The notes below the pieces were generated by a model. It was not told the DNA's origin. It saw only the letters and a program-made list of their open reading frames with translations, and made no database searches. Of a stretch of DNA of 64,000 nt, positions 59,840 through 64,000 are shown one piece after another. Position numbers and translations under genes: made by a program. This DNA is from Saksenaea vasiformis B4078 (taxonomy: Eukaryota; Mucoromycota; Mucoromycetes; Mucorales; Saksenaeaceae), in contig JNDT01001536.1 of NCBI GenBank assembly GCA_000697055.1, positions 111,262 to 175,261 on the forward strand, given 5' to 3'. Position 1 is the stretch's first letter. Each line of letters begins with the position of its first letter.

Positions 59840-62800
59840 ATGAAGAAACCCAATGCGTTGCCATCGTTTCGACAGAAAGCCTTGTCGTTGTCCAGCCTTA
59901 GTGTGCCTCGTCGCTACCATATCCCAGTGATTTTGCTACGAGCACTCAGTCTTATACCTTGCCTGCTCGGTGTCATTCACAACTCACAAGCCGCTTGGAA
60001 TGTTCCTTATCGAGATGCGGGAGGCCCGATCGTGTTACGAAGTACACCTGTAGAGTACTGGGTAGCAAATGCCTGGGTATGACCGTTACTATTCTCACGT
60101 TACCACGAAGGTCACTAAATTTTTGTGTCTACCGTAGTGTATCTTAGCAGGATACTGGAGTTGGATTTTTACGACGAGTATGATGCGACGCTGGATATAC
60201 CATTATGAAATAAGTAATGCTATCGTTCGCCTTATTACTTTGACTGTCATCAACTGGTCCGTTTCAGCTTTTGTGAACTCCAAATACGATTCAGATCAGG
60301 CCATCAAAACATGGATCACGCTTTGCTTTATCTTGTTGGTTTGCAACATTTTCAAACTGATCTTTGCAACGAGTCCAAAGTATCACAAAAAAGCCGAGGA
60401 TGTACAAAGCCCGCGTATCAACATGAAGTCAACTGTAGTCAAGGTCCTTGTCCTTCCTCTCTTTGTTGTCACATGTTTGACGACGTTTGCGGCATTGCGA
60501 CAGATCAACCATTTACAGTATACTACGAGTCAACTTATGGATCAGCCGTTTCAGTTGGATGCCACTCTAGCAAGACACGAGTTAACCAGCGATGCTTCCG
60601 TTAACGTTCTCGTTCTTATCATGTCATCATGGTCAGCTAAAAGCTTGGAACGCCGTCAAATGCTTCGCGACACATCGTTGAAGCTATTGTCTTCTGTCCC
60701 TCACAATGTGTCCATCACATACCGGTTCGTTCTCGGCCAGGCACCCTATGCTCAATCTCAGATGTCCATGGGATCACGTTTGGTACAGGAATCCGCCGTC
60801 TACCATGACCTACTTGTAGTTCCTACTTCTGATGCGCGGGAACACAAGAGTCGCAAAGTCTTTGAAGCACTACAATGGTCTCGGGAGCTCAAATATGATT
60901 ATCTTATCAAGACAGACGACGATGTCTTTACACGCTGGGATATCATCGGGTCGGAGCTAGCGAATTTGGATTCGCCAGCTTACTATTGGAAGGGATTGGT
61001 TTATAGGTACGTAGGCGAAAGGTACACAAGTTTCTGATCTGAATGGTATGTTAGAAATATGCCAACAGACTCTAAGCATGCGGACAAAAGCATGGCCGCA
61101 GATTTTGGCTTATCGATATTGCCACCTTTCACTTCGGGAACACTGTACACAATTTCGCGGGATATTGTTGACTTGGTTGTCACCTCTCGAACACCACGAC
61201 GTTTCATTGCTGCAGATGACCACAATTTCGCAGTTTGGTTATTTGGTTTCAGTATTGAACCTATCCATGATGCACGGATACAAGATCGTGAAGTCTGCAT
61301 AGAGGATCAAATTGCAAAACGATTCCCTCATTCAGATATAGAGAACATGAAACGGATGTATAACAATATCATCAGTCAGCAGAGTCAATGTGTTGGTCTC
61401 GATACGAGCGCATGCGCCGTCTGCTATCCCTGCCACGGTAAAAAGGATAACTGGAGATCGTCAAACCTTGCGTGTGATTCTTTTAGAGGTATCACATTGC
61501 ACGAACAACCCAAGTTTAGAAAGGTATCTGGCATATCTGCGAAGGATAAGCTTCCGCAATTGAAAATTGGAGGCAACGACGATGAGTGGATTGTCAAGGA
61601 TGTCCTATCAAAACGTAGCTCGATCTATTCGGATACTGATCAATGGAATTTATTGTACTGGGTGTGCTGGTCAAGCGAACCATCCACATTTACGGATCGC
61701 CACTGGAGAACACTGGAACTCGTATGGGTCCATGAGCCTCGCGCTATAATTTTCATGATATCCAACACATTACCGGAAAACTTCTTCGACGAATACATCA
61801 GATATGGATACAACATCCGAGTGGTACATTTCAACAGGGATAATCTGATCGATTGGAACTGGCATTTCGGATCAGGTACAGAAGATTGGTTACGTGACTG
61901 GGAAAAATGGGAAAAAGGTCCAAACTTCAACTGGCATTTAACCGATTATATTCGCCTGTATCTGCTATACAATTATGGAGGTACCTATATGGATATGGAT
62001 GCCCTATGGATCAGGATGCCTCCTGATCCGCAACTGGAGTTTATTGGATCGGATTACAGCAGGCTCGAGAGCGATCGTGAGTGGACCTTGGATGATAAAG
62101 GACTATACCTTCCACAAGGTTTGATGAGATTTAAGAGGGGATGGCGCATTTTCCGGGAGATTGCCGAATCGTCCTTTTCATCATACACGTATGATGCGGA
62201 GTGTTTCAACTGTCAAGGACCAAAGGCGATCACTACCTATGTGCGTGGGCATCGGCATACGCTGGAAGCAAACGGTTTTACAATTCTACCTCGCGAGACG
62301 CTGTACCCCAAAGATTACCAAGAAATTAACAAGTATTTTGCTCCAGATCCGCTCGCTGAGCAAGAACTCAAAACGAAGCTTATTCCTAATACTTGGAATA
62401 TCCATTTGTTCGGAAAGATGACGACAGATCTTGAAGTCCGATTTGGAAGTGTGATCGATCTGGTATTTAAACGATTTGATCTGGATATCCCACATCGCGA
62501 TATCGAAACGCGCTCTATTATCAGCTCGACCAATACATGGAAGGTCCCGATGCGCTTGGTCGGACCGAGGACATATATCTATCGAGCTTACACACCATCC
62601 GATCCAAAGATGCAACAGCAGCTATGGAAAATGCCAGCTGCTGGAAAGTTCCAGGGCCTTGATGTAATTTATGTGCAGGGAGGACCAGTCGTTAGTCCTA
62701 CGGTCAAAGTAGACTTCAAGGTTGCACGTGGTAAACTTAGATTTGACAATTCTGAAGAGGAATTTCTATCCAAGTCAGTTGAACTCAAGCATACCACCAT

Positions 62801-62987
62801 GAAAGATGTCAATGTTCTTCTCAACTCAATCATTTACGTACCTGATCCACTACTGGTCGCAAACGGTGGCCGTGACCAGTTGATCATCAATGTTCAGTAC
62901 AGTGGAAGCGGCAAGTCCGGGACGGAGCAAGACAGCATTCAGGTGGACATCATTGTAATAGAGACCGAAGAAGATGAGGAAGACTAG
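59840..62987 (+). CDS. Multipass GT31-GT32 double glycosyltransferase
   Basis: Three exons (59840-60076, 60138-61006, 61055-62987) encode 1012 residues. The first 200 residues hold about five membrane spans (near 28-47, 74-93, 108-126, 136-155, 180-200). A GT31 (beta-1,3-glycosyltransferase) domain follows at about 230-470, with SLERRQMLRDTS, the DxD-type KTDDDVFTRWD (about 337-347) and YWKGLVYRNMP, PPFTSGTLYTISRDIV. A second catalytic domain of GT32 type (about 570-870) shows RTLELVWVHEPRAIIFMISN, NWHLTDYIRLYLLYNYGGTY and the DxD of MDMDALW (about 682-684), and later WNIHLFGKMT. The last 110 residues look like a beta-sandwich (VSPTVKVDFKVARGKLRFDN), and the tail is acidic. I infer a Golgi enzyme that adds two sugars in sequence to a wall or secreted glycan; donor and acceptor are unknown. 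Confidence 0.82.
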
Positions 62988-63197
62988 ACTCCTTCCAAAG
63001 CTTGTTAATAGACAGATTCCCCAACAAAAATGTTGTAGCATTAGCATTTGTTCCATGTCATATACTTGTTGTTCTTGCAAACGGAGTTACTGCATTGATT
63101 ATTTGTGAGCATTGCGTAACCAAGAAAGAAAATGGTACAGTTCGACAAGTCTGTTGGATTTTGCAACTGCTTCATAACTAGGTTAAAGAATAGTATC

Positions 63198-64000
63198 CTA
63201 TAACTGAATACTGCTAGGTTTTTCTGGCCTACGGAAAGCGAGAGGCCGTTGATTGTTGTTGTCTCTCATATAAAGAAACACGTGCAATATATTTGTTGCA
63301 GCCATTTTATCTCGATTCCAGAACATGGCCGTACATGATTTTTTCTGACATGTCAGCACGGCATGTATTGTCGATCCTTGATGGCCTTGCGCGTCGTTTT
63401 CTTCATTTGCTTTCTGTAAGTCTCGAGTCTCACACGCTGGACAGACCTGGGACGTAAGATATTCGTCTATGAGGGAAACGTATGTGGGAGCCTTTCGAAT
63501 TTAAGGTCAACGATAAGTTTTTGGACAACTGTAGAGCTACCTTTCGTCGCCTAGCCTGCTGTTGTAGTTCCTTAAAAATTGCCTTGGTAGGAGCAGCATT
63601 TTTGCCTTTCATGCTACCGGAAAACCCTCCATTCCCATAAGCGACGATAATGGGCTTGTTCTTCTCCTCAGCCTGATCGTTCGGAGAAAGAGGAACCCAT
63701 TTCGAATTACTCTGCTTCCGTGCTTTTTGCTTACTGTGTTGCTCGTACTTCTTGCTACCGTGGAGTAATCTCTTGGCAATCTCACTTCGACTTTTTTGTT
63801 GTCGGATATAAGTTTTGAACTTTAACTTGCTATATCTGAAAAAATATACACATGTTATGACAAAATAAATAAAGAAAATAGCAACCAACCTTTGATCCCG
63901 GCTAAAAAATTCAGAGATACGCTCATAGTGCCGGACGCAATATCGGATCGCAGTAATTAATTTCTCCATACTGGTTGTCTTCAATGATGGTATATTATTG
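63198..64000 (-). CDS. Fanzor/TnpB-like RuvC nuclease, C-terminal part (5' end beyond window)
   Basis: Three exons (63890-64000 and beyond, 63541-63835, 63198-63491) are visible on the minus strand; the frame is open to the window edge, so the N-terminal domain and first RuvC Asp are missing. About 233 residues are read. A basic helical part (YSKLKFKTYIRQQKSRSEIA) leads to KPIIVAYGNGGFSGSMKGKN, then after an intron VSLIDEYLTSQVCPAC, a zinc ribbon (CPAC, 27 residues, CQKKSC) and WNRDKMAATNILHVF. In TnpB-like nucleases the last motif carries the third RuvC Asp. The Glu in LIDEY sits where Fanzors have a relocated catalytic Glu. The presence of introns and the protein type suggest a eukaryotic Fanzor, often carried by transposons. 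A non-Fanzor TnpB derivative is the main alternative. It converges with the glycosyltransferase gene, 210 bp apart. Confidence 0.68.

Follow-up and report, generated by a model that had tools for sequence, protein, structure and literature searches.

Fanzors, nucleases of eukaryotes that can be programmed, are carried by transposons. Several classes of transposon, Helitrons included, have been reported to carry Fanzor1 genes, and the Mucorales families tabulated in 2013 by Bao and Jurka number four in Rhizopus oryzae, three in Phycomyces and ten in Mucor circinelloides (PMC3627910). Mucorales Fanzor1 elements have thus been known since 2013, and the gene described here, at the right edge of a 64,000-nucleotide stretch of Saksenaea vasiformis B4078 DNA (hereafter the window: positions 111262–175261 of contig C263, JNDT01001536.1, in an assembly of 38.7 Mb and 666 contigs), adds a further member.

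Several described systems come close to this locus. SpuFz1 from Spizellomyces punctatus (PDB 8gkh) has the catalytic residues D383, E541 and D606, and PpFz1 from Parasitella parasitica (PDB 9cf0), which also belongs to the Mucorales, carries a cyclophilin-binding insert in its RuvC part (both from sections of PMC11423790). Among mobile elements, the part of the 2013 survey used here describes MCi-2 of Mucor circinelloides as 11 Fanzor1 copies with a near-identical 3' part and varied 5' parts, as in the Saksenaea family, and with no recognisable inverted repeats, which may hold for that family as well, whereas complete MCi-2 copies have target duplications of 11–12 bp and none of at least 7 bp was found here (PMC3627910). 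The Helitron-borne CRe-1, 2 and 3 of Chlamydomonas, as described in the same part, likewise have Fanzor1 without Helitron genes of their own, kept 3' ends, and 5' ends that are often truncated or variable and are common with those of Helitrons; they differ in having Helitron-like 3' ends too, of which none was matched here, and in that most of their insertions have variable-length duplications (PMC3627910). Saito et al. drew a parallel between Helitron-linked Fanzors and TnpA/TnpB (in the part of PMC10432273 used here).

Our main result, held with good confidence, is that the window contains the intron-containing C-terminal part of a Fanzor1 gene (RuvC-II, zinc ribbon and RuvC-III) on a multicopy Mucorales mobile element, for which RNA-guided cutting of sites and, at about even odds, Helitron-like movement are the inferred mode of spread. 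Roughly the last quarter of the gene lies at the right edge, and its features, with the basis of each in brackets, are as follows.

63890–64000, minus strand: Fanzor1 exon, truncated on its 5' side where the contig stops (spliced frame and contig end)
63836–63889, minus strand: intron 1, 54 nt, GT...CAG (GT-AG; stretch absent from homologues)
63541–63835, minus strand: Fanzor1 exon, RuvC part, IIVAYGNGGFSGSMKGK region (spliced frame, homologue alignment)
63492–63540, minus strand: intron 2, 49 nt, GT...AAG (GT-AG)
63198–63491, minus strand: last Fanzor1 exon, with LIDEYLTS, four-Cys zinc ribbon, WNRD and stop (PF07282, motif)
63462–63464, minus strand: RuvC-II Glu, aligned with SpuFz1 E541 (profile alignment, motif)
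63441–63443, 63432–63434, 63348–63350 and 63333–63335, minus strand: zinc-ribbon Cys codons (last exon)
63309–63311, minus strand: RuvC-III Asp (WNRD), aligned with SpuFz1 D606 (profile alignment, motif)
63182–63204, minus strand: possible short stem GTTA.AGGAT...ATTCT.TAAC beside the element end, overlapping the stop codon (folding)
63175–63181, minus strand: 3' terminus of the element, CTAGTTA, where the ten compared copies end (copy comparison)

The three exons and two GT-AG introns between 63198 and 64000 give one spliced frame that stays open over 232 codons up to the stop codon at 63198–63200, while many stops interrupt the two remaining frames of the spliced sequence. One codon is split across intron 1 and the intron 2 junction falls between whole codons, and both fit; intron 1 holds no in-frame stop, and a form retaining it would likewise stay open. 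Splicing appears to be supported, because four fungal homologues align across both exon junctions without an insertion of intron length. An earlier sequence-only reading had placed frame-preserving introns at these same coordinates and had the gene running off the right edge, and both claims agree with our results: the contig ends at 64000, the last base of the window, and the 5' part of the gene lies beyond it. Its further statement that the gene looks intact rather than decayed stands for the 232 codons in the window and goes no further, since the contig stops there.

As for the protein family, the same reading had recognised a TnpB/Fanzor-type nuclease from an ordered C-terminal RuvC and zinc-ribbon signature, and the assignment can now be narrowed to Fanzor1. 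The ordered motif DE[YF].TS..C..C...C..C...NRD, a pattern written post hoc with the gene already in view, has a single occurrence when all six frames of the window are searched, and is absent from 50 mononucleotide-shuffled windows. A profile search of the zinc ribbon, which that reading had proposed as a check, matched the last exon to PF07282 (OrfB_Zn_ribbon, a C4 ribbon) at 27.8 bits against a cut-off of 26.3, and the NCBI guided_TnpB model matched far under its cut-off (16.7 vs 100 bits). When the window fragment was compared with the Protein Data Bank (PDB), three Fanzor1 proteins led, namely GtFz1 (2.9e-8), SpuFz1 (8.8e-6) and PpFz1 (1.1e-5). Five database proteins are homologous to the fragment, and the three with a named organism come from Rhizopus microsporus (two) and Parasitella (one); a profile search yielded 98 homologues at 1e-5, those with names being mostly from Rhizopus microsporus and otherwise from other Rhizopus, Umbelopsis, Helicostylum and, once, Borealophlyctis.

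A homologue profile, made from 31 of 100 distinct homologues, was then compared with solved structures. It ranked SpuFz1 first (1e-21, 80.9 bits) and PpFz1 second (1.3e-16, 64.1 bits), the latter nonetheless being distant, at 28.8 bits with the window fragment itself. A TnpB-like protein, L79, reached 40.1 bits and other proteins named transposase or TnpB at most 29.6; GtFz1, also a Fanzor1, obtained merely 32.8 bits, just under LaTranC at 33.1. In the profile alignment VDPG, DEY and WNRD fall on SpuFz1 D383, E541 and D606 (by hand count, with a chain numbering offset of 394), and the window holds the second and third of these residues (E and D) only. SpuFz1 also shares the C4 ribbon with TS before and RD after it, but is distant in sequence, and in the sister copies described below the upstream part is longer and the gene has several predicted introns. 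The Fanzor1 motif D-X(125,275)-[TS][TS]-X-X-C4-X(5,50)-RD, as given in the part of PMC3627910 used here, is matched in the window by TS, C4 and RD with an X of 6, and in sister copies by a D about 200 residues before TS (lengths added by hand). Taken together, these comparisons support Fanzor1 as the family, which by profile bits appears nearer to Fanzor1 than to TnpB, in a comparison made without a tree or a named Fanzor2.

Weighing against this assignment, the next PDB matches of the fragment after the Fanzor1 proteins were four DNMT3B sequences (best 1.5e-4) over a Lys-rich stretch at residues 64–110. That match, together with a sub-cut-off match to RB_B and a succinate dehydrogenase subunit model scoring 15.7 of 443 bits, would be the grounds for taking the gene to encode an unrelated zinc-ribbon protein. 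We reject this as exceedingly improbable, since the homologue profile matches 20 distinct solved sequences at 0.01 and every one of them carries a guided-nuclease-type name (Fanzor, TnpB/IS605, LaTranC, Cas12 or an AI-designed RNA-guided nuclease).

The Fanzor1 gene in the window lies on a mobile element with multiple copies in the genome, from a family that has been spreading recently. Its last exon has eight other loci in the genome at 96–98% identity, and at the DNA level there are nine other copies (those eight and one on C235), 96.9–99.3% identical over 826–829 bp. All ten end in CCTAGTTA, at window position 63175 and 23 bp past the stop codon, and then pass into unlike flanking DNA. The 29-bp 3' end, with at most 3 mismatches allowed, was found at 11 places (the ten copies and a partial copy on C165) and its reversed control at none; older, damaged relatives lie on C66 and C651. 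In four of the ten copies (those of the window, C658, C329 and C616) the contig stops within the element, and young, near-identical copies of this kind would be expected to break short-read assemblies, hence the cut gene in the window. The genome as a whole has at least 131 PF07282 places over the cut-off among 150 scored of 388 first-look candidates, the window's own place lying outside those 150.

Comparable 3' ends occur in at least four Fanzor families, a count that excludes eight other ribbon loci (L001–L008). Family A, that of the window, ends in CTAGTTA at 23 bp past the stop; family B (L048, L049, L055) in CTTGTTA at 39 bp; and family C (L051–L054 and others) in CTTGTTA, or CTTGCTA in L053, at 26 bp. 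Family D ends at CTAG, the TAG of which is its stop codon; TT comes next in 6 of its 7 distinct copies, and this end was found at 13 places (at most 3 mismatches; reversed control 0). The shared type is thus CTWG followed mostly by TT(A), 0–40 bp past the stop, whereas the 5' ends of the elements are mosaics of repeats.

The sister copies show what lies upstream of the window fragment: an exon with RuvC-I, a segment of 413 residues, and N-terminal exons that include a CPRC...C stretch, the exon borders being putative. The RuvC-I Asp is present in six of nine, as WGVDPG in L040, L042, L047 and L059, as SGVDPG in L046, and in L041 just before a frameshift; in the remaining three it is replaced by Gly (L043), the frame is broken at the motif (L045), or the sequence stops short of it (L044). 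The sequence-only reading would have been refuted by finding neither a RuvC-I Asp nor a REC-like part upstream; the Asp in these six copies speaks in its favour, and the long open upstream part, a candidate for the REC-like part, is without a Pfam match over the cut-off. In L043, three upstream segments gave no Pfam family over the cut-off and no transposase match.

The condition of these copies raises the alternative that the element is a dead or dying transposon relic, which spread recently but no longer makes a working nuclease, the 232 open codons of the window reflecting only its youth. Two observations weigh against our reading here: none of the six copies that reach the N-terminal exon (L040, L041, L043, L045, L046, L059) is undamaged, all having stops, frameshifts or deletions, and in L043 the RuvC-I Asp is replaced by Gly. 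In addition, the frame is broken at this Asp in L041 and L045, and two last-exon residues of the window copy (S for F and L for P) are found in none of seven aligned family members. On the other side, three of the four copies cut by contig ends (the window, L042 and L044, not L047) are open over what their contigs hold, the extra base of L044 falling in intron 1, and any intact copies may be exactly the ones that these breaks have removed.

Selection on the last exon bears on the same question. Seven of seven between-family pairs have saturated synonymous sites with a non-synonymous rate (dN) of 0.25–0.37, and family A, pooled over eight of its ten copies (L047 and L059 left out), has 42 synonymous against 35 non-synonymous differences over 61.5 and 229.5 sites, respectively. 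This shows purifying selection between families and, pooled, within family A, and within-family pairs of C and D (ratios 0.10 and 0.30) agree with it; a close pair in family B, with 2 synonymous and 10 non-synonymous differences (ratio 1.37), is without constraint and counts against it. Because the last-exon changes point to purifying selection, a working source copy existed recently, while nuclease activity of the present copies is putative. We therefore regard the relic as possible and far from remote, though clearly short of an even chance.

The Gly in L043 could also suggest a nuclease-dead, domesticated Fanzor acting as a DNA-binding regulator. This is highly unlikely and was rejected: the RuvC-II Glu and RuvC-III Asp are present in the window, the RuvC-I Asp codon is kept in six sister copies, and near-identical copies with differing flanks look mobile. 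A Fanzor1 carried by a mobile element is the reading we retain.

TnpB and Fanzor proteins take their guide RNA from the 3' end, a rule that an element end so near the stop codon would fit. An Rfam scan of the window gave no matches, and the folding results vary with family and length. With the last 120 nt of the window's element copy folded, which gives the possible stem beside the element end, 2 of 200 shuffles folded equally well; with the last 40 nt, a different pairing wins and 42 of 200 shuffles are as good. In 40-nt folds the stem is strong in family D (all five copies folded of seven, the other two having been missed by the search pattern) and in three of four C copies, and not in ten A and three B copies, and a 3' stem common to all families was accordingly rejected. 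When 120 nt of a D copy are folded, the result is unremarkable, with 32 of 200 shuffles equalling it. Covariation in the D stem is weak: across the seven distinct sequences one pair has changed in both its bases, and 83 of 500 shuffles do equally well. At C371:27188–27220 and C624:341413–341445 the stem of family D, which lies inside its last codons, shows a compensating change of the outer pair (G-C to T-A).

With regard to how the element moves, a Helitron has a 5' TC and a 3' hairpin followed by CTRR. Set against the 3' part of this definition, families A and D have CTAG, and B and C have CTTG. Neither TAACTAGG nor TAACTAG, which would be an exact inverse of the 3' end, occurs upstream in the six copies with upstream sequence. 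A search for target duplications of at least 7 bp, with 5' ends not all fixed, found none above chance in 11 copies: four had words of 7–8 bases, at rates matched by 42–109 of 200 control positions, and the other seven had none. Because the three L043 segments lack a transposase match, no such duplication turned up, and the element combines variable 5' ends with a fixed 3' end of CTAG type, it may be moved in trans by Helitron-like rolling-circle machinery, to which we give about an even chance.

There are hints of such machinery in the genome, where Helitron_like_N has 23 matches, 20 of them over the cut-off and several being pieces of one copy. C628 carries a 291-bp module 2.1 kb ahead of a Helitron Rep match that is followed by a PIF1 helicase, and at least three of the ten other matches of this module are at Fanzor loci (C523 at 74% and C633 at 80%, both in the family of the window, and C193 at 79%). 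Three of nine module copies begin TCATACATATAAAACGG after three different flanks. At L065 (C628:82400–82900), the module directly follows a fragment of the Fanzor family's 5' region, which resembles that of five copies of family A at 96–98%; this arrangement is probably a nested insertion.

Against the Helitron part of our reading stand the six of nine module copies without a clear TC start, the range of the duplication search, outside which shorter duplications fall, and the absence of CTWGTTA from the 1151 bp past the helicase of the kin element on C560. A comparison of C628 (where the contig ends first), C648, C560 and C282 for a Helitron 3' end gave no shared terminus, and the C282 stretch matched none of the other loci compared and has no CTWGTTA-type end. 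A recombinase-like frame was seen at L068 (C648:82300–83400), about 3 kb past a Helitron_like_N match, with a Phage_integrase score of 25.3 bits (cut-off 27.1).

The mobility part alone thus has a rival in some other transposon class (MuDr, Crypton-like or unclassified, the kinds linked to other Fanzor1 elements of the Mucorales), to which we would assign somewhat less than an even chance. It draws on the lack of a Helitron 3' end matching the element and on the precedent of MCi-2, with its 11–12 bp duplications and one subfamily with part of a Crypton transposase (in the part of PMC3627910 used here). The missing inverse of the 3' end in six copies, the lack of duplications of at least 7 bp above chance in 11 copies and the 5' module shared with a Rep/helicase locus speak against it.

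By analogy with studied Fanzor1 proteins, the protein would bind a short RNA with a scaffold supplied by the gene's 3' end. The guide would be the host DNA just past the element end, running leftward from 63174 on the minus strand, and the nuclease might cut a matching empty site, at which repair would copy the element in; the element DNA may, at about even odds, be moved in trans by rolling-circle machinery. In family D the stop codon TAG lies inside the terminus CTAGTT and a seven-pair stem falls within the last codons. A tentative and rather unlikely extension is that several Fanzor1 families ride on Helitron-like elements and that their last 30–40 bases may serve at once as coding end, rolling-circle 3' signal and guide-RNA scaffold. 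A young family with at least ten copies and one exact 3' end, in a genome with many Fanzor/TnpB-type places, offers a natural experiment on the spread of Fanzor genes, in which the predicted guide of each copy can be read from its flank.

Next to the element, a convergent gene at 61038–62987 on the plus strand encodes a glycosyltransferase, the homologues of which carry PF01762, PF04488 and PF04572. Its two best matches, at 79% and 73%, are Apophysomyces proteins, which suggests a host close to Apophysomyces within the Mucorales. The gene stops 187 bp short of the element end, and the insertion therefore lies just beyond a host gene. At the other end of the window, positions 1–2000 have a G+C content of 0.338, lower than that of the other 2-kb steps (0.387–0.483).
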